A program made the position numbers and the translations under genes. DNA of 34,836 nt from Synergistaceae bacterium (lineage in GTDB: Bacteria; Synergistota; Synergistia; Synergistales; Aminobacteriaceae): assembly GCA_031267575.1 (NCBI GenBank), contig JAIRYN010000021.1, positions 1 to 34,836 of the forward strand. Direction: 5' to 3'. Below, in pieces: positions 2,906 through 34,394 of the stretch. Numbering within the stretch: position 1 is the first letter of the stretch; every line of letters begins with the position of its first letter. The notes under the pieces were generated by a model. It had not been told where the DNA came from, made no database searches, and worked only from the letters and a program-made list of their open reading frames with translations.

Positions 2906-2998
2906 ATTTGAAGAATTAGATTTGAAGAAATGGAGAAACTTGCTATCTGCTTGACTAAAGAAAGTATAGACCAATTGACTAAAGAAAGTATAGACCAA
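2902..2998 (+). repeat. Two tandem micro-duplications after radical SAM gene 2
   Basis: A 14-bp unit is doubled at 2902-2915/2916-2929 and overlaps the stop codon of the gene. A 24-bp unit is doubled perfectly at 2951-2974/2975-2998. Confidence 0.92.
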
Positions 2999-4200: not shown

Positions 4201-4257
4201 ATAATTTTTCAATTTTCCTATAATTTTTCAATTTTCCTGTAATTTTTCAATTTTCCT
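4201..4257 (-). repeat. 19-bp unit repeated three times across a stop codon
   Basis: A 19-bp AT-rich unit (TAATTTTTCAATTTTCCTA on +) occurs about three times head to tail. It spans the last codons and stop of the Tm-1-like gene and the short spacer to the next gene. On the - strand each unit reads as purine-rich GGAAAA, close to the true AGGAGG start signal of the next gene. Confidence 0.92.
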
Positions 4258-5436
4258 GAACTGTTCGGCGAGGGCCTCGGCAAAGGCGTCGTCGTTGATG
4301 TGGTGTGGCACGCGGATGACCTTCCTCCGATCAGTCAGCTTGACCGTCGCCTCGATAGCCTCAAAAAGAGCTTCATCCGCCTCCAGGTCGTAGAAGGGCT
4401 GCCCCGGAGCGTCGATAGCGGAAACCCCGCCTTCGGGAAGAAGAAAACGGACCTCACCCTCGCACTGATTGAGTTTTTCGCCGATCCAGCGCGCCATAGC
4501 GGCGTTTTCTTCCTTCGTCGTGCGCATGAGCGTCACATTGGCATTGTGCGCGTAGAGGTTGCGTCCTTTATATTTTTCTGGTACGGTGTTCATAGCTCCA
4601 AAGTTGACCATATCCAACGCCCCGACGCTACCCACATAGGGAAGTTTTGTGCGGATGACGGCCCCCAGACGATCAGGGCCAGCGCTCATCACCCCACCCA
4701 TGTGCAAGTCGCAGATTTCGGTCAAAGTGACGTCGATGACGCGCTTTAACATCCCGGAGTCGATGAGCTTCTCGAAACACTGGCCACCGATTCCCGTAGC
4801 GTGGAAAATCAACGGCTCGTATTCGTTCTCGAAAATGTTCCGCAAATTTGTCACACAAGGCGTCGTGACGCCGAACATCGTCATGCCCAACAGCGGCTTC
4901 GTGTCCGCGATATCGGGAATGGCGTTTTTTACCATGCCGGCCATGGCGTGAGCCGCGTTACCCAACACCGCCCGGGAAACGGGATTCAACCCCGCCACAT
5001 CCGCCACGGAGGCCATCATACAGATGTCGGTGGCTCCCACATAGGGAGTAGTGTCTCCGGAGGCGACAGTCGAGACCATTAGCTTGGGTGTACCCACCGG
5101 CAGACTTCTCATACCGCGGGTGACCAGTGCCGTGTTTCCCGAACCACCCATTCCCAGCACGCCGCCGATGTCGTCACGTCCCAGCAGAAATGCCTCCAAA
5201 GCCTCGCTCATGGCCGTCACCGCGCTGCCCCGATCGAGCCCCGCGCTGAGAAAATTAGGGATCTTAGGGTGATGCCTAGCAACATCGGCATTGGAGACGT
5301 CGACACAGTTTTTATGCTCGAAAATGCCTACGTCGATCAGCACGCATTCGACGCCCGCGCGCTCCAGAAGCTCTTTGGCGTAGGACAGCTCCGTATACTT
5401 GGTGTCGCATGTTCCAATAATGTAGGCTTTTTTCAT
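4228..5436 (-). CDS. Tm-1-like ATP-binding domain protein (UPF0261)
   Basis: Seen: 402 residues, the usual size for the family. It opens MKKAYIIGTCDTKYTEL, has VLGMGGSGNTALVTRGMRSLPVGTPKLMVSTVASG in the middle and TPYVGATDICMMASVADVAGLN after it, then a C-terminal half ending in the LLPEGGVSAID and RVPHHIND blocks. Known: the family is named after the tomato Tm-1 resistance protein, whose N-terminal domain binds ATP. The bacterial role is undefined, but the gene is commonly paired with the TIM-barrel gene found next here. ATG 5436 follows a GGGGGA stretch and lies 23 bp after the cupin gene. The C-terminus runs into the 19-bp repeat array, so its last residues (KIEKLQEN) are partly repeat-encoded. 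Confidence 0.9.
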   Translation of the reverse strand: MKKAYIIGTCDTKYTELSYAKELLERAGVECVLIDVGIFEHKNCVDVSNADVARHHPKIPNFLSAGLDRGSAVTAMSEALEAFLLGRDDIGGVLGMGGSGNTALVTRGMRSLPVGTPKLMVSTVASGDTTPYVGATDICMMASVADVAGLNPVSRAVLGNAAHAMAGMVKNAIPDIADTKPLLGMTMFGVTTPCVTNLRNIFENEYEPLIFHATGIGGQCFEKLIDSGMLKRVIDVTLTEICDLHMGGVMSAGPDRLGAVIRTKLPYVGSVGALDMVNFGAMNTVPEKYKGRNLYAHNANVTLMRTTKEENAAMARWIGEKLNQCEGEVRFLLPEGGVSAIDAPGQPFYDLEADEALFEAIEATVKLTDRRKVIRVPHHINDDAFAEALAEQFRKIEKLQEN

Positions 5437-5906: not shown

Positions 5907-6269
5907 CTCAGGATACGAAACAAAATCATGTCATCGTCATAAATCCCAAGAACTATCAAGAACTATCAAGAATTATCAAGAACTATCGAGAAGTGCGCCT
6001 TGCTTTGTGGAAATCGCTTTGTGGAAATCCGTGAAATTTCCGCTTCTTCCTCAATATCGGCTCCTCTGTCGGGTTGCTCGGAGCCTTCTTGTCCACCTTC
6101 TTGTCCACCTCCTTTCTGATTTTCTTTCTGATTTTCTTTCTCTCTTTCTCTCTTTTGCTTTCTCTTGCTTTCTTTTTATTCTTCTCTCGATATATAGATA
6201 TTATATAGATATTATTTTGAAGGTTGATATTATTCTAGCATCGATACCCACAACTGTTATATACTAAAC

Positions 6270-6298
6270 TTGCAATATGTCAAAGATGTGCTTATAAT
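6270..6298 (+). promoter_or_regulatory. Sigma-70-type promoter for livHMGF
   Basis: TTGCAA (6270-6275), a 17-bp spacer and a perfect TATAAT (6293-6298). It lies about 138 bp upstream of livH, giving a leader of about 130 nt that contains the 14-bp doublet at 6346-6373. Confidence 0.7.
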
Positions 6299-6435
6299 GC
6301 GTAAATTAATTTTTTTATCGAATCCTACTATAAAGAAAAAATTTAAGTCATTTTGATTCAGTCATTTTGATTCGATTGGGCAAAAAAATGAGCAAAAAAT
6401 GAGCGAAAAATGAAATTTGAAGGGGGGAAAAGATA

Positions 6436-11465: not shown

Positions 11466-11816
11466 TTTTACGATAAAGCAATGAGAAAGCCAACAGCTTC
11501 AGTCGTTGGATGAGAGTTGTTGGATGAGAGATGAGAGTCGTTGGATGAGAGTCGTTGGATAAAATTGGATGAAATTGGATGAGAATCGCAACGCCGCCGA
11601 CGGCGGCGTTTGTTTTGTATTTAGTTTCTTGTCATATGTCTACTTTCATGTTAAACTTCTTTAATAGCCTATCAACAATAGCCTATCAACAATAGCTTAT
11701 CAACAATGGCTTATCAACAATAGCCTATCAACGTGAGATACGGGGCGGAACACGAGCGGGATATCAAGCGGGATATCAATTAGAATTCCATGACTTTAGT
11801 CGTGGGAGTATGTCAA
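11466..11816 (+). repeat. Dispersed intergenic repeat, copy A (MITE-like)
   Basis: Copy A shares long blocks with 16796-17068: TTTTACGAT-AAGC-ATGAG at the left, the GC hairpin with the following ~50 bp, CTTATCAACGTGAGAT-CGGGGCG-AACACGA, and GTGGGAGTATGTCAA at the right. Near the left is a hairpin CCAAC..CGTTGG (11490-11509). Near the right is CCATGACTTTAGTCGTGG (11788-11805). Such subterminal hairpins recall IS200/IS605 ends, but no transposase is present. Copy A has five 14-bp units AATAGCCTATCAAC at 11663-11732, where copy B has one. It ends 14 bp past the lptD stop. Confidence 0.75.
11590..11622 (+). terminator. Rho-independent terminator-like hairpin in repeat copy A
   Basis: AACGCCGCC (11590-11598), loop GAC, GGCGGCGTT (11602-11610), then TGTTTTGTATTT. 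On the + strand this would end the livHMGFK transcript. The same structure with loop GTT is in copy B, so the terminator travels with the repeat. Confidence 0.7.
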
Positions 11817-11830
11817 GTTCAGGGCAATCC

Positions 11831-13582
11831 TCACTTCGGAAGGTTTTGGGGACGGTCGAAGGGATCAGTGTCTCTGAACTCGCCGAAGGACGCAGGAGTG
11901 TTGGGGAACGCCAGAATGGATATGTTGAGGCTAAGGCGGCTTTCCCCGTTTTTAGTATAATCGTGGTGATAGATTACTTCCCATTTCATACAGTCGTTGA
12001 CCCACTGGAGCGCGTAGCTGGTCTCATCCACCATAGACTCCTTCAAATCGTAACTTCCTCGCGCAAACACGAAAAATTCTCGCCCCACAGGAAAACGTAT
12101 TTTTTGATGCAGTCTTTCCGTCTTTCGAAAGCCATCCCAAAGCAAAGGAGACTCTCCCCAAACGTACCGCCGTTCGTAGCCGGAGGCCAGCTCCACCTCG
12201 CCCAGGTTGTAGCGTAACCCCCACAGCCCTTCCACCATCTTTTGGTTAGGGTAATCTTTTTCGTAAAACCAGATTCCGTAGCGGGAATTAGAGAACAACT
12301 GGACCGATTTGCTCAAGGGTATCTCGAAATAGCTGTGTAGCTTTGCTCCGTAGCGCGTGATCACATCGCCCGTAAAAGTGGGGGTTTTGTCCTGATAGTC
12401 ACCCCAGGATGTCTCCAACCGCAAATAGGAAAACCGCGAAAGCGGGTTGTCGAACCAGGGCGTCGAGAAAGTAAGCTCCGCTTTTCGGTCTAAGCGGCCC
12501 TTGTACTTATAAAGCGAACTTTTCCTGTCCTCTATGTACTCGTCCTTCGACCAGCGAAGAGCGGCCTGCCAGCCCTGGTGTTCGTAATTCAGTGACACTC
12601 GGGGGTGGTAGATCTTCTCGTTCCACGCGTTGTCCCAAGAGTACTCGATGCCGCCCATGATCGAGAATTCGTTGCCGCCGCCAAAACTCTGCACCACGTT
12701 AGCCGTCCATTCAAAATTTACGTCCGTCCAATAGGCCACTCCCAAATTGACGGAACCCGTTTCCCATGCCAGCGCTCCGCTAAGGCCCATGCCCGCTCCC
12801 TTATCGTCGTTGTGTTGAATGTAGGGGGCGATGGAGTGTTGCGCGGCTTTACGGTCGATGTTCACGATGTAATCCAGGGGATAAGTGAAAATAAAGGTCT
12901 TGCCCAGGTAAAGACGCGGCTTTTTCGCCACTACGTAGTGTCCAGGCATGACGGTGATTTTCTTCGTTTCGATGCGGTAGTGGGGGTGGTCCAGGGCACA
13001 AGTCGTGGCAGACACATCTTCCCAGATAGCCATGTAAGACATATCTTGTCTGGCATGGATAAGACCCCGCTCCACCGCTATGGAGTAAGGAAGGACTTGA
13101 ATCCCCCCTCCAGAGATGTACAGGGTTCCTTCTCCCACGGGAACGTTACTCCTAGCGCCGGTGAGAACGCCTTCCCCCGTGTTTAAGTTGTACTCCAGCC
13201 CGTCGCCCATCAGGTTCCCATCTTTGTTCCGCAACGACACCGGTTTGCCTGGTAGGGACGAGGCCCTCAGCTTTTGCGTGACGGCGTCGTAATCAATGCG
13301 CTCCGCCCGGACCGTGGCGTCTTGATACGTCAGGATAGCGTTGCCTTGAGCGGTGATTCTGCCTGCGGCATCGTCATAACTGACGCGTTCCGCGTCCAGT
13401 ATGACGCTTGCGGGCGAGGTAGCGGCAAAAACGGGTGTTCCGGCAAAACACAGAACAAAAAACAGAACAAGCTGCAGGATAAGCCGCAGGATAAACCTCA
13501 TGATAAGCCTCAGGAGGATACCGTCGCTCCCTCTCCAAACCCTGTTTTTTTCACCTTTATGCTTCAGTCTGTGCTTGTCCAC
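11831..13582 (-). CDS. lptD: LptD-like outer-membrane LPS assembly protein
   Basis: Seen: 583 residues from GTG 13582, with AGGAGG about 9 bases upstream. The start lies inside lptC (19-bp overlap). A long basic N-terminus precedes a signal peptide (LVLFFVLCFAGTPVFAA). Next comes an OstA/LptA-like beta-taco segment (VILDAERVSYDDAAGRITAQGNAILTY), then a barrel with the typical TTCALDHPHYRI and many alternating aromatic strands. Two mature cysteines remain (TTC and NDCMKW). Known: LptD inserts LPS into the outer leaflet. It is shorter than the roughly 780-residue E. coli protein. Three 12-bp units (13476-13511) encode part of the signal region (LRLI-MRFI-LRLI). Repeat copy A sits just behind the stop. 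Confidence 0.82.
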   Translation of the reverse strand: MDKHRLKHKGEKNRVWRGSDGILLRLIMRFILRLILQLVLFFVLCFAGTPVFAATSPASVILDAERVSYDDAAGRITAQGNAILTYQDATVRAERIDYDAVTQKLRASSLPGKPVSLRNKDGNLMGDGLEYNLNTGEGVLTGARSNVPVGEGTLYISGGGIQVLPYSIAVERGLIHARQDMSYMAIWEDVSATTCALDHPHYRIETKKITVMPGHYVVAKKPRLYLGKTFIFTYPLDYIVNIDRKAAQHSIAPYIQHNDDKGAGMGLSGALAWETGSVNLGVAYWTDVNFEWTANVVQSFGGGNEFSIMGGIEYSWDNAWNEKIYHPRVSLNYEHQGWQAALRWSKDEYIEDRKSSLYKYKGRLDRKAELTFSTPWFDNPLSRFSYLRLETSWGDYQDKTPTFTGDVITRYGAKLHSYFEIPLSKSVQLFSNSRYGIWFYEKDYPNQKMVEGLWGLRYNLGEVELASGYERRYVWGESPLLWDGFRKTERLHQKIRFPVGREFFVFARGSYDLKESMVDETSYALQWVNDCMKWEVIYHHDYTKNGESRLSLNISILAFPNTPASFGEFRDTDPFDRPQNLPK

Positions 13583-14112
13583 TGGATAACGCCTCCTCTA
13601 TCCAACAAAACGACTCCTGATACATCAAGACTCGCCACGTTCGCCTTCAAGAGAAACTCGGCGTCGTAAATCGTCAAACCTTTCGGAAATAAAAACTCAT
13701 CTTCATCCTTCGACCAGAACAGTCGTGGACTTTCTAAGTTTAGCACACGAGGCCCCATTTCCAGAGTTCCAAGAAGCGGGCCTATGTCCAACGAAGCGGC
13801 TTCTTCCGAGTAAACACCCTGATTGCTCCGTAAGTACCACTCCCCGCCATCGGCGATCTGGCGGCGCACGTCCAGGGAGCGTACTTCTATCTTGTTTTCG
13901 CTCCTCCGAGCCCAGGGAATTTGAACCTGCCAGAGGTCTCCCGATATCTCGCGCTCGAACTCCAAATTTTCCAGCAACAGTCCGGGCATATTTTCGAGCC
14001 CTTCCCTTAAAAGATTCACGTCGAGGTGAATATCCCTAAGAGTGTACCGGACCATCAGCCCTATGCAAAATACCGCCACAGCTAGGAAGACAAAAATTTT
14101 TTTGATTTTCAT
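13564..14112 (-). CDS. lptC: LPS export periplasmic protein LptC-like
   Basis: Seen: 182 residues from ATG 14112, with one N-terminal membrane anchor (IFVFLAVAVFCIGLMVRYTL) and then a periplasmic beta-rich domain with LDVRRQIADGGEWYLRSNQGVYSEEAASLDIGPLLG and the MGPRVLNLESPRLFW repeat-like strands. Size, anchor and position directly before lptD fit LptC, which carries LPS between LptFG and LptA. The primary sequence is divergent, so the call rests largely on context. The gene starts 5 bp after the upstream stop. Confidence 0.7.
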   Translation of the reverse strand: MKIKKIFVFLAVAVFCIGLMVRYTLRDIHLDVNLLREGLENMPGLLLENLEFEREISGDLWQVQIPWARRSENKIEVRSLDVRRQIADGGEWYLRSNQGVYSEEAASLDIGPLLGTLEMGPRVLNLESPRLFWSKDEDEFLFPKGLTIYDAEFLLKANVASLDVSGVVLLDRGGVIQWTSTD

Positions 14113-14117
14113 AGCGA

Positions 14118-15410
14118 CTACCAGACGATCTTCCAGTTGGATTCTTCGCGGACAACGCCCAAAGTGCGGCTGATCAGAGTGCGGATCAGAAGGATACGTT
14201 TGACCGCCACGATCTTAGCCCGCTCGACGCCCGTCCAATCAATCGTATACCCGTCTCGCAGGGCTCCTCTGAAATCCGAGGCTTTTCTCAACTCCGACTC
14301 GAAAGTCTCCTTGGAAAAAAGTTTTTGCGAGGATTTCGACAGCATGGAGTACATGGCGTCGGGATCGTGTTTCATCCAAAGTTCCAAAAAAGCCCGTACC
14401 GTTTTTTCTCGGGAAGAGTACGCTTTGTCGGCCTCGGTTTCCTGAGTTTTGGCTTCTTCAGAGAGAGGCTCTTGATTCCCTCTCGACCGTAGAGCTTCCA
14501 CGAAATCCTCCATGCTCTGGGACTCCTCTGGCTCCATCACAATGATCTCCGGTTCCGTCGCCACGTTTTTAGTGGGCTGGGTAGTTTCTGTGGTAGTTTC
14601 TGTGGTAATTTCTGTGCTGGGTTCGACAAGGCTGACGGACGCTTCAGGCTGCTTTGGAGTTGCCGGTCTGGGGTTTCGATTCGAGGCGCGTTTCGTAGTG
14701 GAGACCGGTTTTGGCGCGAAAGGCGGTTCTTGGGGGGCACGTTGCCCTGAAGCGGGTGGCAACTCCACGATCACTACATCAAGCAAGTCCTCAGGATTTC
14801 CACTGTTCTCACTGTTCTCATTGGCAAACAGAACTTCTGAGTTATCCAATGAGTTATCCAATGAGTTATCCGAAAAAGCGAAAATACGCTCGTCGTACAC
14901 GCCCATTCCTTGAACAGCGAGGGCGAAATCTCCCTCGTTCTGTTTAGGGAAAAAAACTAGCCCCTGAACCAATCCACTGAGAGGTTGGTCCAATGTCCGG
15001 TCGTAGCGGATGGGTTTGACGCGCTTTCCCTCGGCCGTAACTAGCGCGATTTTCTCGGAAAGAGGGGAAAAATTGAGTGGGCGGGGTCCAAAAGCGTACA
15101 CGGTAAAAAGGAAGGGTTCCGCCTCTCCGATGGACAGGCCCGAGATAAACCCCTCTTTGTAGGAGCGCCGTTCTGACTCTGTCATTCCCGTTCGGACCGC
15201 CTCCGAGTCCACCCAGGGGTCCACCAGTTCCTCAGGATAGTGCACGACCCAGACAAGACAATCTTGCCCCCAGTGAAAAGACGTCCGGTTTTCGAGAATC
15301 CGGATCGTATCCTCGAAGGAGTTGGCGTAGCAGCGGCTGGCGTTCCCAAGCCAGAAAGCGAACAAGGCAAGCGCTCCTGAAAGCGCAGGAAAAAAGCGAC
15401 GAAACTTCAC
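14118..15410 (-). CDS. Exported protein of unknown function in the lpt operon
   Basis: Not recognised. Seen: 430 residues from GTG 15410, 6 bp behind the preceding gene with only a weak ribosome site, so probably translationally coupled. A signal peptide ends near ASRCYA. A folded N-terminal half (about 30-175) is followed by a long low-complexity Pro/Thr/Glu linker (about 200-320), then a C-terminal domain of about 95 residues (KTVRAFLELWMKHDPDAMYSMLS...SNWKIVW) that resembles NTF2-like or DUF4878-type small domains in pattern. The linker carries in-frame tandem duplications: SLDN three times, NSEN-type units, and TTET repeats. Position before lptC-lptD suggests an envelope role. Confidence 0.7.
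   Translation of the reverse strand: MKFRRFFPALSGALALFAFWLGNASRCYANSFEDTIRILENRTSFHWGQDCLVWVVHYPEELVDPWVDSEAVRTGMTESERRSYKEGFISGLSIGEAEPFLFTVYAFGPRPLNFSPLSEKIALVTAEGKRVKPIRYDRTLDQPLSGLVQGLVFFPKQNEGDFALAVQGMGVYDERIFAFSDNSLDNSLDNSEVLFANENSENSGNPEDLLDVVIVELPPASGQRAPQEPPFAPKPVSTTKRASNRNPRPATPKQPEASVSLVEPSTEITTETTTETTQPTKNVATEPEIIVMEPEESQSMEDFVEALRSRGNQEPLSEEAKTQETEADKAYSSREKTVRAFLELWMKHDPDAMYSMLSKSSQKLFSKETFESELRKASDFRGALRDGYTIDWTGVERAKIVAVKRILLIRTLISRTLGVVREESNWKIVW
14580..14616 (-). repeat. In-frame 15-bp tandem repeat (TTETT linker)
   Basis: GTGGTAGTTTCTGTG-type units, about 2.5 copies with period 15, encode a Thr/Glu-rich linker in the 430-residue exported protein. Confidence 0.9.
14801..14871 (-). 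repeat. In-frame 9-bp and 12-bp tandem repeats (SLDN linker)
   Basis: A 9-bp doublet (about 14801-14820) and a 12-bp GAGTTATCCAAT unit in three copies (14839-14871) encode repeated SLDN motifs in the linker of the 430-residue exported protein. Both periods are multiples of three. Confidence 0.9.
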
Positions 15411-15416
15411 GGCTCG

Positions 15417-16550
15417 TCAGTTGATCTTTTGCTCAGCAGGCAGCACGATCGTCTCCGTATCGGTACCGGAAGAAGAAGGCGCGACAGTTCCCGTCGAAGC
15501 AGGAGAGGATATGCTCTCCCGAATCGTCGCCCCTGGGTCAATACGAAGGCTTTCCGGAACCGGATAGCCGGATACCTGCACGTCCCCAGAGGTTTCCACG
15601 AAGGTGATGCTTCCCTCCGCTATCGTGAGCGCTTCGCCGCGAATGAGTAATCCACCCAGCAACCCCAAGGGTCCTAGGGCGATCGCGCCGACGATACTGG
15701 TGGCTCCAGCCCCAATCATGGCGCCTTCGCCTTTGTTCCAGCTCTTTTCCGCGTCTTTCGTGGCCTTCTGAGAGGCGTTGCCGACGGTAACCGGGGGGCG
15801 CTGGGGACCCAGTGGCACCAATGCCTTAAAATCGATGCGGATCTCACTGGGTAAACCGCCGTGGCGGGGTTTTTTCACTTCTTGGATGTTGGCGGATATA
15901 GGGCTCCCCTTGGGTGCCACTAAAACCTTGTTCACCAGAAGGTCATCCACCAGCGCCAGCGCCACAGAATCCCCTTTTTGGGCTTTGGCGGGGGTCAGTT
16001 CTTCGAGAAATTTTATCTTCAAAACGGTGCTCGTCGGTAAAATCACGTCCTGAAAGAGCACGGGGTCGGCTACCAGCGAGGCCAGAATGCGCTCCACGCG
16101 CATTGCCAGAGGCTTGCCGTATTGCATTTCCCCGTCCAAGTCCACCTCCATATCTTCAACTCGCTTCAGGGCCGGTTTCCATCCTTGCGCGTTTTGTCCC
16201 ACGATCCACTCAGCCACGCTGAGCTTGAAGAGCATGGAGGGCTGGTCCGTCGTCCCCACCTCCAGAAAGTTCAAAGTAGCGGCGTGGCGCTCGGAGATGC
16301 TACCGGGAAGGTCCCTGCCGAACAGTTCCTTTTCGACGGTGTTCAATCGCTCGATGAGTCCTCCTTTGTTGGCTTCGCCGTAAACGATAGTCTCGACTCG
16401 CTTCATCATCAGCATGGACGTGCTTTGCTCTGTGTCGTTCACTACCTGAGCCGCTTGGGCGGGAATCACTAGACCGAAGACCGCGATAGAGGTGAAAAAA
16501 CCTATCAGCAATATCCCTCGAAAGCCCCTCTCCTTCGTTATTTTGTTCAA
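15417..16550 (-). CDS. Exported protein of unknown function, first gene of the lpt operon
   Basis: Not recognised. Seen: 377 residues from TTG 16550, supported by GAGGAGG 8 bases upstream. An ATG between the two is out of frame. The signal peptide (GFFTSIAVFGLVIPAQAA) is cleaved near residue 34. The N-terminal mature part has SMLMMKRVETIVYGEANKGGLIERLNTVEKELFGRDLPGS, a pattern that may recur around SERHAATLNFLE. A later beta-rich part (LPTSTVLKIKFLEELTPAKAQKGDSVALALVDDLLV, APKGSPISANIQEV) looks like an SH3-like or SAF-like exported domain. A glycine-rich hydrophobic stretch (GAMIGAGATSIVGAIALGPLGLLGGLL) could insert into or associate with a membrane. It opens a four-gene unit with lptC and lptD, so an outer-membrane or LPS-related role is likely (inference). 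Confidence 0.72.
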   Translation of the reverse strand: MNKITKERGFRGILLIGFFTSIAVFGLVIPAQAAQVVNDTEQSTSMLMMKRVETIVYGEANKGGLIERLNTVEKELFGRDLPGSISERHAATLNFLEVGTTDQPSMLFKLSVAEWIVGQNAQGWKPALKRVEDMEVDLDGEMQYGKPLAMRVERILASLVADPVLFQDVILPTSTVLKIKFLEELTPAKAQKGDSVALALVDDLLVNKVLVAPKGSPISANIQEVKKPRHGGLPSEIRIDFKALVPLGPQRPPVTVGNASQKATKDAEKSWNKGEGAMIGAGATSIVGAIALGPLGLLGGLLIRGEALTIAEGSITFVETSGDVQVSGYPVPESLRIDPGATIRESISSPASTGTVAPSSSGTDTETIVLPAEQKIN

Positions 16551-16585
16551 TGTGCATACCTCCTCGAAACATACGGTTTTCCCTT

Positions 16586-16669
16586 AAGTTTTCCACTAAG
16601 TTTTCTATATAAGTTTTCTATATAAGTTTTCCCTATATAAGTATAAGTTTTCCCTACATAAGTTTTCCA
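16586..16669. repeat. Tandem AAGTTTTCTATAT-type array upstream of the lpt operon
   Basis: About six imperfect units of AAGTTTTC plus CTATAT/CCTACAT. On the - strand the units read AAAACTTATATAG and offer several TATAAT-like boxes ahead of the lpt operon start. A TTGACG lies further upstream near 16692-16697. The array may have multiplied or displaced promoter elements; no single promoter can be named. Confidence 0.8.
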
Positions 16670-16726
16670 GCAAGTCAGTGATGTCGTCAACTATCCTAAT
16701 TTTATCAGTTGGGAAGGCTTTGCGAC

Positions 16727-16843
16727 ATGCGTTTCGAGGCGCGAAACCACGGTTTCGTCTTGGCCTCAGTGGCCATAGCGCTTTTACTTTGGGCCTTTTA
16801 CGATCAAGCGATGAGAAAGCCAACGGCTTCAGTCGTTGGATGA
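16727..16843 (+). pseudogene. 38-residue pilin-N-terminus-like fragment, possibly cut by repeat copy B
   Basis: ATG 16727 opens 38 residues with a hydrophobic stretch GFVLASVAIALLLWAFYDQ, which recalls the N-terminal helix of type IV pilins and pseudopilins, although the usual Glu at +5 is absent. The last 16 residues lie inside repeat copy B, so the rest of a gene could have been lost by insertion. There is no ribosome site I would trust. The segment also holds a perfect hairpin CGAAACC-AC-GGTTTCG (16742-16757). Chance is a serious alternative. Confidence 0.2.
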
Positions 16844-17068
16844 ATTGGATGAAATTGAATGAGAATCGCAACGCCGCCGTTGGCGGCGTTTGTTTTGTAT
16901 TTGGTTTCTTGTCATAGGTCTACTTTCATGTTAAACCCCTTTTTATGGCTTATCAACGTGAGATGCGGGGCGAAACACGACCAGCATATCAATGCCAGCA
17001 TATCATGCCAGGATATCAATGCCAGGATATCATGCCAGGATATCAATGTGGCTGTGGGAGTATGTCAA
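16796..17068 (+). repeat. Dispersed intergenic repeat, copy B (MITE-like)
   Basis: Copy B aligns with 11466-11816. The central ~75 bp (16860-16935) is nearly identical, including the hairpin. The left stem CCAACGGCTTCAGTCGTTGG is perfect at its ends, while the right subterminal hairpin is degraded. Here the units ATATCAATGCCAGG/ATATCATGCCAGG are amplified about five times (16986-17046), where copy A has only two related units. It ends 1 bp before the pyrG stop. No transposase is encoded. Confidence 0.75.
16870..16902 (+). terminator. Terminator-like hairpin in repeat copy B
   Basis: AACGCCGCC (16870-16878), loop GTT, GGCGGCGTT (16882-16890), then TGTTTTGTATTT. No established + strand gene lies upstream, so here it is probably cargo of the repeat. 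Confidence 0.55.
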
Positions 17069-27753: not shown

Positions 27754-28117
27754 GGTACCTAATGCAAATTACGTGAAGTTTCCAGATGTTTTTTAGAATT
27801 TCCTTGAAAACCTTCCCGAAAAGCCGTGGAATCCTGGAGATTCTTTCACGAGAATCAGCCTGGCGACTTAGATCCTCAAAACTTGGCAAATAACGCGTCG
27901 ATGTGTTTTAATCATTCATGGAGATTCATGGAAGATGGGAATTCATGGAAGTAAGAATGGGAATGGGAATGGGAATAAGAATGGAAAAGAAAATGGAAGT
28001 GAAAAGAAAATGGAAGCGAAAAATGGAAGTAGGATTTTTTCATGGAAGTAGGATTTTTTCATGAGACTCGATTGAATTGGATTGGATTAAATTGGAGTTG
28101 GATTGGAGTGGAGTTTT
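27754..28117. other. Gap with purine-rich tandem repeats
   Basis: No supported gene. From about 27910 to 28110 the sequence is a nearly continuous set of degenerate short repeats: ATTCATGGA-type units, GGAATG hexamers (about 27957-27975), GAAAAGAAAATGGAAG units, a doublet of GGAAGTAGGATTTTTTCAT (about 28025-28062), and TTGGATTGGA-type units running into the start of the chromate transporter gene. A 73-residue frame on the - strand (27668-27889) is discounted because the csp promoter lies inside it. Confidence 0.65.
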
Positions 28118-33231: not shown

Positions 33232-33325
33232 GGTGAGTTGGCTGAGGGGTCGAAAGCACTCGCCTGCTAAGCGAGTATAGGGGCTAGAACCTCTATCGAG
33301 AGTTCAAATCTCTCACTCACCGCCA
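33232..33325 (+). tRNA. tRNA-Ser (anticodon GCT)
   Basis: 94 nt including encoded CCA. Acceptor arms GGTGAGT and ACTCACC, discriminator G. Anticodon stem-loop CTCGC-CTGCTAA-GCGAG (GCT). A long variable arm (TAGGGGCTAGAACCTCTA region) and T-loop TTCAAAT, all typical of a class II tRNA-Ser reading AGC/AGU. Confidence 0.95.
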
Positions 33326-33335
33326 TTTTTTAAAA

Positions 33336-33412
33336 GCGGCAGTAGCTCAGTTGGATAGAGCGAAGGCCTACGGAGCCTTAGGTCGCGGGTTCGAATCCTG
33401 CCTGCCGCGCCA
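33336..33412 (+). tRNA. tRNA-Arg (anticodon ACG)
   Basis: 77 nt including encoded CCA. Acceptor arms GCGGCAG and CTGCCGC, discriminator G. Anticodon stem-loop AAGGC-CTACGGA-GCCTT (ACG, expected to be edited to ICG). T-arm GCGGGTTCGAATCCTGC. It lies 10 bp after tRNA-Ser and probably shares its promoter and the terminator downstream. Confidence 0.95.
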
Positions 33413-33438
33413 AATTTTATAACCAAATAACCTCACTT

Positions 33439-33480
33439 AACCCCAGAAGCCTAGGCAAGACTAGGATTTTGGGGTTTTTC
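33439..33480 (+). terminator. Terminator after tRNA-Ser/tRNA-Arg
   Basis: Outer stem AACCCCA (33439-33445) with TGGGGTT (33470-33476), inner CCTAG/CTAGG, then TTTTTC. Confidence 0.85.
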
Positions 33481-33603
33481 ATGCCTAAACTAACACCTCC
33501 TAAAACCTATATTGAAGATCTTCTGTTGAAGATCTTCGCGGCCTCGATGTAACGCTGGGGAATTTCAATACGCTGCGCGGATAGCGTTACCTGGAACTGT
33601 TTC

Positions 33604-33991
33604 TTGGACGCGTTTGAAGGAGGGAAGATTGGTTTCGACGAGGTCTCCAACAAGCTGGAAGAAGGATTGAACGGCCTTATCAGTTATTTTAGGCCAAAAA
33701 ACAAAAAAAACGCGTTGAACACGTCGAGGAAATACACGAAAAATTTAGAGCGTGAATTTAGAGCGTGTTTGAATGGTTTTTGCGAGGAATTTGAATGGTT
33801 TTTGCGAGGAAATGGATATCGACCGCGCTATTGCGCCGGATGTGACCGCTTACAAAAATATCGAAAACCTAAACGTAGGAGAAAACGACTCTGAAAGTGT
33901 CGAATACAACGCGCTGCTAAATCGATGGTCTCAAGGTCAGAAAGGCGCGTCCGCGTTGTCGGACGTTCTGAACAAGATAAAAACGAAATAG
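33604..33991 (+). pseudogene. ORF broken by tandem micro-duplications
   Basis: Two overlapping frames (from TTG 33604, and one ending at TAG 33989-33991) are one reading frame split by a duplicated 22-bp unit at 33771-33814. Removing one copy joins ...FRACLNGFCEE directly to MDIDRAIAPDVTAYKNIENLN...VLNKIKTK. A second, 13-bp doublet just upstream (33744-33756/33757-33769) also breaks a frame: without it the preceding codons read VEEIHEKFRACLNGF, and a run of A near 33703 may be a third lesion. The product is not recognised; it looks charged and helical. It sits between two tRNA pairs, a common landing place for mobile DNA, but no integrase is present. Confidence 0.6.
33744..33814 (+). repeat. 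13-bp and 22-bp frame-breaking tandem duplications
   Basis: TTTAGAGCGTGAA and the following TTTAGAGCGTG copy have period 13. GAATGGTTTTTGCGAGGAA occurs at 33771 and 33793 (period 22). Neither period is a multiple of three. Confidence 0.92.
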
Positions 33992-34105
33992 TTTAACGCT
34001 TTTTGGCAAACAAGCACCGCGAGTTGCTCTTTTTTGTCCGCTTTGTCCGCGAAAACCTATCAATAGTTCCAGGACACCATGTACCGACTATGCCAGTCCG
34101 CTAAC

Positions 34106-34134
34106 TTGACAAGGAAAGATCCTTGATATAAAAT
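34106..34134 (+). promoter_or_regulatory. Promoter for tRNA-Tyr/tRNA-Thr
   Basis: TTGACA (34106-34111), 17-bp spacer, TAAAAT (34129-34134). It is about 90 bp ahead of tRNA-Tyr. Two perfect duplications lie in between: 13 bp at 34152-34164/34165-34177 and 15 bp at 34182-34196/34197-34211. These lengthen the leader. Confidence 0.75.
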
Positions 34135-34226
34135 AAAAAAAGTTTGGTTTTGTGGTTTAGCTTAGTGGTTTAGCTTACTAGAAGGAAAGTATAGCTAAGG
34201 AAAGTATAGCTGATGTTTTTCAATAA

Positions 34227-34312
34227 GGTGGAGTGGCCGAGTGGTCAAAGGCAACAGACTGTAAATCTGTCGGCATGAGCCTACGTTGGTTCGAACCCAA
34301 CCTCCACCACCA
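34227..34312 (+). tRNA. tRNA-Tyr (anticodon GTA)
   Basis: 86 nt including encoded CCA. Acceptor arms GGTGGAG and CTCCACC, discriminator A. Anticodon stem-loop ACAGA-CTGTAAA-TCTGT (GTA). Class II variable arm and T-loop TTCGAAC. Confidence 0.95.
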
Positions 34313-34318
34313 TAATAA

Positions 34319-34394
34319 GCCGACTTAGCTCAGTAGGTAGAGCACATCCATGGTAAGGATGGGGTCTCCAGTTCGAGTCTGGAAGTCGGCTCCA
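34319..34394 (+). tRNA. tRNA-Thr (anticodon GGT)
   Basis: 76 nt including encoded CCA. Acceptor arms GCCGACT and AGTCGGC, discriminator T. Anticodon stem-loop CATCC-ATGGTAA-GGATG (GGT). T-arm CCAGTTCGAGTCTGG. It lies 6 bp after tRNA-Tyr. Confidence 0.95.

Follow-up and report, generated by a model that had tools for sequence, protein, structure and literature searches.

Short tandem duplications in a Synergistaceae genome and a junction mark that fits topoisomerase I cleavage preference

The window analysed here, a stretch of 34,836 nucleotides from a Synergistaceae bacterium (contig JAIRYN010000021.1 of assembly GCA_031267575.1), contains two copies, A and B, of a dispersed repeat whose internal tandem units differ in number (Table 1). 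Judged by their sequences, both copies are internally deleted, non-autonomous transposons of the IS200/IS605 family that resemble IS608. Comparison with other members of the repeat family and with the genome at large (~1.47 of 2.76 Mb was analysed) reveals that unit expansion is not a property of the element, a point missed by the original prediction made for this locus. Short tandem duplications are in excess in this genome both inside and outside the elements, and many of them bear on one strand, at both junctions, a sequence mark that agrees with the cleavage preference published for bacterial topoisomerase I.

At least 71 copies of the repeat were found in the genome portion analysed, and alignment of 55 non-autonomous full copies, here called miniature inverted-repeat transposable elements (MITEs), yields a consensus of 295 nucleotides. 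In the layout read from these copies, a left end and the first tnpA codons are followed directly by the tnpB 3′ end and a right end. IS608 inserts 3′ of TTAC, employs AAAG (left) and GAAT (right) as guides, and is cleaved at TCAA (PMC5934647). Correspondingly, TTAC lies 5′ of 63 of 69 left ends (the search pattern included AC, not TT), and right ends carry TCAA in 48 of 59 cases, with TTAA in most of the remainder (the pattern included TCAA and allowed up to 4 substitutions). The consensus has AAAG 5′ of the hairpin CCAACGGCTTCAGCCGTTGG at its left end, and GAAT, the hairpin CCCACAACTTTAGTCGTGGG and then GTATGTCAA at its right end; both guide and hairpin pairs are likewise found in copy A.

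The coding remnants agree with this assignment. In approximately 12 copies the same left end leads directly into a Y1 transposase gene, as evident at L122:7630-8399, where left end, tnpA and right end occur in this order and the 132-amino acid product matches Y1_Tnp (PF01797, E 6e-33). The TnpA encoded at L122:7773-8171 carries HIR in place of the HUH motif and may be inactive, and another TnpA copy, near the end of contig C40, carries HIH. The right half of the short copies corresponds to the tnpB 3′ end, as judged from PF07282 matches and from HDRDINAAVNILRVGASTLKGEDVRPVSVGCLCRS, which was read by eye. In copy A the 14-bp unit represents the tnpA start (ATGGCTTATCAAC, encoding M-A-Y-Q), and in copy B the 12- to 14-bp unit represents the former RDIN region of TnpB. 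The TTAC flank, TCAA end, guides and hairpins, the Y1 transposase behind the same left end and the many internally deleted copies are all shared with non-autonomous IS608 and IS200/IS605 derivatives, which may be MITE-like or resemble repetitive extragenic palindromes, and nothing essential sets the family apart. Copy B, which lacks the right guide and one hairpin arm, is probably immobile.

Several further observations concern the family as a whole. An exact search for the core in other genomes gave no match. Weak relatives of the element occur in a few genomes of the same bacterial family, mainly in one from another genus (G024), where approximately 13 were found that mostly match part of the left end alone, and the element family is therefore likely to be older than this genus. 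In nine copies (c5, c25, c28, c31, c45, c55, c56, c59 and c61) GATTCTCATCC or a near variant stands in place of the left-end arm, such that one long palindrome surrounds the left hairpin. Where the right end of a MITE copy is full, it is retained together with the tnpB 3′ end, a region that gives rise to the TnpB guide RNA in related elements, and by this analogy such copies could in principle supply many TnpB guides.

The original prediction held that copies A and B share a nearly identical core and differ in their unit counts, and this description largely stands. Outside the units, the copies agree at 93-94% of positions over 100 and 48 nucleotides, a likeness that is far beyond chance because a 35-nucleotide core pattern (up to 3 mismatches) occurs at 68 sites in the genome and its reversed control at none. 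The AATAGCCTATCAAC unit is present five times in copy A and once in copy B, and five CCAGGATATCAATG-type units in copy B correspond to two AGCGGGATATCA units in copy A. The proposed starts of the copies, 11466 and 16796, do mark the element, but they took in the flanking TTTTAC, and the real starts are 11472 and 16802. Similarly, the left-end GTTGGATGAGA unit is indeed expanded in copy A, to about six, although not only there, since two to three units are present in copy B and a single one in the consensus. The two copies do not form a simple before/after pair, as had been proposed, because each is missing a portion of the right end found in most other copies, with further loss of the GAAT guide and a hairpin arm in copy B.

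Unit counts across the family indicate that duplications have been gained repeatedly. Among insertions of at least 8 nucleotides relative to the consensus, 63 of 89 are tandem, versus 1 of 89 when random genome letters of the same length are used, and these tandem insertions are spread over many sites of the element. In copies that have the site in question, unit counts range from 1 to 10 for the left-end 10-mer, from 1 to 5 for the junction 14-mer and from 1 to 4 for the right-end 12-mer, and other units vary as well. We placed the counts on a tree that relates 53 copies by their consensus columns and is poorly resolved (35 of 50 branches are open). The left-end unit requires 26 changes versus 24.8 with shuffled labels, and two right-end sites require 10 versus 10.3 and 8 versus 7.7. 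For the right-end 12-bp unit there are 17 changes versus 20.3, a value reached by 2 of 100 shuffles, and copies c65 and c66 have one deletion and one array in common. Aligning the copies and counting their units was the check that had been suggested for the claim that units multiplied independently after the element spread. The outcome is that units arose mostly copy by copy, as proposed, with the exception that counts of the right-end 12-bp unit are partly inherited.

To place these gains in context, exact tandem duplications with units of 9 to 40 bp were counted in stretches of the genome that had been fetched without regard to repeats. These unselected stretches contain 4.28 duplications per 10 kb overall and 18.2 per 10 kb in noncoding DNA. 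The nearest named Synergistaceae relatives, which are metagenome-assembled genomes whose topoisomerase I (TopA) is at most 84% identical, have 0.53 overall and 1.6 in noncoding DNA, and 20 members of the bacterial family likewise have 0.53. The excess over the nearest relatives is therefore ~8- to 11-fold, which extrapolates to roughly 1,200 duplications in the whole genome. When units of 8 to 40 nucleotides are counted, noncoding DNA carries 27.5 duplications per 10 kb outside the elements and 26.5 inside them, versus 2.9 in noncoding DNA of the 20 family members; order-3 shuffles yield 0.3 per 10 kb for units of at least 8 nucleotides. The equal densities outside and inside the elements rule out an element-specific cause.

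Units in excess are 5 to ~16 nucleotides long, with a tail to ~24 nucleotides, and are AT-rich relative to their flanks. Inside genes, 79 of 92 duplications (86%) have a unit length divisible by three, and this preservation of the reading frame argues that they are real sequence under selection rather than errors of assembly. An open reading frame for a TnpB of another family (413 amino acids, L142:8303-9544) contains in-frame repeats, SRVHSRVHSRVH and SSKRSSKRSSKR, that are coding duplications.

The junctions were studied in a set of 242 clean duplications with unambiguous boundaries, from which MITEs had been masked. C occupies position -4 at 45% of the ends versus 22% in the null (chi2 157, binomial p 1e-28), T occupies position -5 at 45%, and C(-4) stands out in every class of unit length and in both coding and noncoding DNA. 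When all offsets and bases are scanned without bias, C(-4) gives the strongest signal (z 20), followed by T(-5) (z 12). Moreover, C(-4) is present on the same strand at both junctions in 117 of the 242 duplications versus 25.7 expected (p 3e-49), and two halves of the data agree on this pair (47.9% and 48.8%). A single flank-redundant duplication leaves the result unaffected. Once duplications are oriented by C(-4) alone, T(-5) reaches 71% at both junctions. On the 3′ side, the second base (+1) is T in 46% of units versus 27% at the equivalent position of the right flank (p 0.003), and this one-sided preference suggests that the left junction alone has been cleaved, while the right junction only represents an acceptable 3′ end. 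The mark is evident in copy A as well, where the AATAGCCTATCAAC array starts after TTCTTT and its unit ends in TCAAC, which places C at -4 and T at -5 at both junctions on one strand. The cut strand has no clear bias relative to transcription by counts (23 template and 15 sense in genes; 32 and 23 in intergenic DNA). Sequence pooled from other genomes provided a small sample of 50 clean duplications, 8 of which have the C(-4) pair.

Ordinary replication slippage, in a genome that merely tolerates its products, is the textbook source of unit gain and loss, and variable counts of 10- to 25-bp units between copies are just what is seen with slipped-strand arrays such as minisatellites and other variable-number tandem repeats. 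Slippage probably acts on arrays here once two or more units exist, as 129 of 328 arrays resemble three or more units. However, the duplications do not show microhomology above the null at their birth. Slide ambiguity is zero for 48% of clean two-copy duplications versus 51% of random fakes placed at the same loci, and the small class above the null, with ambiguity of at least 8, resembles decayed third units. These values argue against slippage as the first duplication step, and this process also predicts no C(-4) or T(-5) at both ends. The genome has intact MutS and MutL, and loops of this length are in any case not expected to be recognised by mismatch repair. A mismatch-repair mutator was ruled out, since both proteins are present as long open frames. 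We therefore regard slippage as an improbable origin of the units.

A staggered double-strand break with 5′ overhangs, followed by fill-in and end joining, would yield tandem duplications without homology, as described for eukaryotic topoisomerase II and for breaks in plants. The nearest described process is found in yeast and human cells with altered topoisomerase II (top2-FY,RG; TOP2A K743N), where a genome-wide mutator effect creates short tandem duplications de novo at sites of topoisomerase cleavage (PMC11477040). Those units are mostly 2-4 nucleotides long and depend on a double-strand break with 4-nucleotide overhangs and on non-homologous end joining (PMC11477040), whereas units here span 5-25 nucleotides and carry a type IA mark on one strand. 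In the present set, 45 duplications have opposite-strand C(-4) marks in the geometry of a 5′ overhang. However, opposite-strand marks are uncorrelated (odds ratios 0.81 and 0.47), unlike the same-strand marks before the two junctions of a duplication (5.0 and 3.9), and no Ku was found in this genome or in 40 relatives. The 5′ overhang with fill-in was our first model and was dropped because of the same-strand correlation, and it is now the alternative to which we give the least credence.

The position and identity of the marked bases direct attention to type IA topoisomerases. Bacterial topoisomerase I prefers C at -4, a base that occupies a cavity through which the scissile phosphate is positioned, and it forms a 5′-phosphotyrosine that is rejoined to a 3′-OH (PMC7587558). 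Among mapped sites of the Escherichia coli and Mycobacterium tuberculosis enzymes, we count C(-4) in 26 of 26, T(-5) in 15 of 26 and C(-5) in 0 of 26 (PMC2702276, Table 1). The mark TTCNNN, with the junction after its last letter, thus fits the published preference for cleavage after CNNN with frequent T at -5 (PMC2702276, PMC7587558), although those sites are known as cleavage sites in vitro. The genome has a single type IA topoisomerase gene (PF01131), and an extra or second enzyme of this type was thereby ruled out. This topA gene (L246:7560-10052, minus strand) encodes intact DPDREG (TOPRIM) and YMRTDS (tyrosine) motifs and intact residues of the cytosine pocket. Its product carries a 14-residue insertion, SGASSSEGRSYELK, that almost none of 29 Synergistaceae TopAs possesses, and differs from these proteins at four further residues, namely I407, N575, Q674 and S720 in the numbering of this comparison. 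The insertion holds an in-frame 27-bp duplication that itself bears a TTC-type junction mark. As read from the protein sequence, the insertion and the four odd residues are only candidates for the reason behind the burst.

From the observed mark we infer a route by which TopA could generate the units throughout the genome, and we consider it fairly likely that they arise by a TopA cut, extension of the 3′ end and rejoining to a displaced flap. TopA would cleave one strand after TTCNNN, leaving a free 3′-OH and the enzyme on the 5′ end. If rejoining is not immediate, a polymerase might extend the 3′-OH by ~5-20 nucleotides in an AT-rich, easily melted stretch, and the old strand would be displaced as a 5′ flap to which TopA is still attached. 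A new 3′ end with C at -4 would fit the cytosine pocket and could be joined to the 5′-phosphotyrosine of the flap, and the looped extra unit would become a tandem duplication at the next replication. Slippage or repeated events might later raise the copy number. Such a single cut with extension and rejoining would explain why both junction marks lie on one strand, and also the one-sided 3′ preference, the AT-rich unit, the range of lengths and the independence from end joining.

The same marks could be left if topoisomerase I cut each of two sister strands independently and the 3′-OH of one sister's unit were then joined to the 5′-phosphotyrosine of the other, giving a duplication on one strand and a deletion on the other. 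This exchange likewise predicts same-strand C(-4) at both junctions and no microhomology. However, it predicts an equal 3′-side preference at the two junctions, unlike the T(+1) values given above, and needs two cuts 5-20 nucleotides apart in two molecules. It also predicts equally many marked deletions, and the few deletions in MITE copies that were inspected by eye do not have such a context. We consider sister-strand exchange unlikely, albeit the least unlikely of the alternatives.

The cuts might instead be the work of a different enzyme that favours a TTC-like sequence, for instance a nuclease, of CRISPR or other origin, or an endonuclease of a mobile element. Some CRISPR systems have TTC as a motif, and the transposases of IS200/IS605 elements, which are abundant here, also form a 5′-phosphotyrosine and leave a 3′-OH. 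Such Y1 transposases, however, cut after TTAC or TCAA through guide pairing, not three letters past TTC. Furthermore, a second TTCNNN at the end of the unit requires that the 3′ end be held by its -4 base, which is what the cytosine pocket of topoisomerase I does. This explanation therefore seems very improbable, only slightly less so than the staggered break.

Some results weigh against the route through TopA extension and rejoining. The same-strand C(-4) pair is present in only about half of the duplications (chance 11%), which means that the remainder must have come about by other routes or under a looser preference. Moreover, TopA is found in all relatives, where its conserved residues are nearly the same, yet these genomes have almost no such duplications, and the burst is therefore not explained by TopA alone. 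The genome encodes Pol I including the 5′ nuclease domain, and exonuclease VII, MutS and MutL as well, and no repair gene was found missing. Accordingly, loss of the Pol I 5′ nuclease was ruled out as a cause, as was loss of exonuclease VII, whose gene is intact on contig C73; a second, broken fragment of its large-subunit gene, with two stops, lies at G000:C47:100640-100933. Finally, the duplications are read from the genome of a single strain, and the relatives compared belong to other genera.

On the broader proposition that topoisomerase I serves as a duplication machine, with a single cut whose extended end is rejoined, and that it has made ~1,000 duplications including one in its own topA gene, we find the balance evenly poised. 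In the open-licence literature, no report was found of a type IA topoisomerase as a source of duplications, nor of topoisomerase I cleavage sites as tandem-duplication junctions in a genome.

The window itself is rich in these events, with 13.5 tandem duplications per 10 kb versus 4.3 in the unselected stretches, and clusters lie near 5947-6413 and 27947-28115. The spacers between four tRNA genes (Ser, Arg, Tyr and Thr) at 33232-34394 contain several tandem duplications, and no known RNA families other than tRNAs were found in the window. Four duplications with the same-strand mark are listed together with the parts of copies A and B in Table 1.

Table 1. Parts of copies A and B and marked tandem duplications in the window (TRF, Tandem Repeats Finder)
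Feature	Positions	Strand	Basis
Tandem duplication, 24 bp, outside the element, same-strand C(-4) at both junctions	2951-2998		junction scan
Tandem duplication, 19 bp, same-strand C(-4) mark	4221-4258		junction scan
TTAC flank 5′ of copy A, IS608-type target tetranucleotide	11468-11471	+	TTAC precedes 63/69 left ends
Copy A, internally deleted IS200/IS605 (IS608-like) element by sequence, 345 bp	11472-11816	+	left GATAAAG.., right ..GTATGTCAA; aligned to 55 full MITE copies
Left-end hairpin CCAAC..GTTGG of copy A, preceded by guide-like AAAG	11490-11509	+	sequence
Expanded GTTGGATGAG-type units, copy A (one in family consensus)	11501-11592	+	TRF, unit counts
Five AATAGCCTATCAAC units, tnpA start, copy A	11663-11732	+	TRF
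Two AGCGGGATATCA units, former TnpB codons R-D-I-N, copy A	11755-11779	+	TRF
Right end of copy A with the GAAT guide, the hairpin TCCATGACTTTAGTCGTGGGA and TCAA at the terminus	11783-11816	+	sequence
TTAC flank 5′ of copy B	16798-16801	+	flank count over left ends
Copy B, same-family element with right end further deleted, 267 bp	16802-17068	+	sequence, consensus alignment
Two to three TTGGATGA-type units, copy B	16834-16862	+	sequence, unit counts
Five CCAGGATATCAATG-type units, copy B	16981-17048	+	TRF
Truncated right end of copy B, which retains GTGGGAGTATGTCAA and has lost the GAAT guide and the left arm of the hairpin	17049-17068	+	consensus alignment
Tandem duplication, 22 bp, same-strand C(-4) mark on minus strand	33768-33811		junction scan
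Tandem duplication, 15 bp, same-strand C(-4) mark on minus strand, near tRNA genes	34182-34211		junction scan

This genome bears on the question of how short tandem duplications originate without a pre-existing repeat. It offers hundreds of such duplications with a sharp, strand-specific mark that points to one enzyme, and its ~70 element copies have a known ancestral sequence, such that gains can be counted against the consensus. If the proposed route is true, topoisomerase I would join topoisomerase II as a source of duplications, by way of a process that operates without end joining. The mark would then constitute a testable mutational signature in bacteria, and the process that leaves it would be a source of in-frame repeats in proteins.

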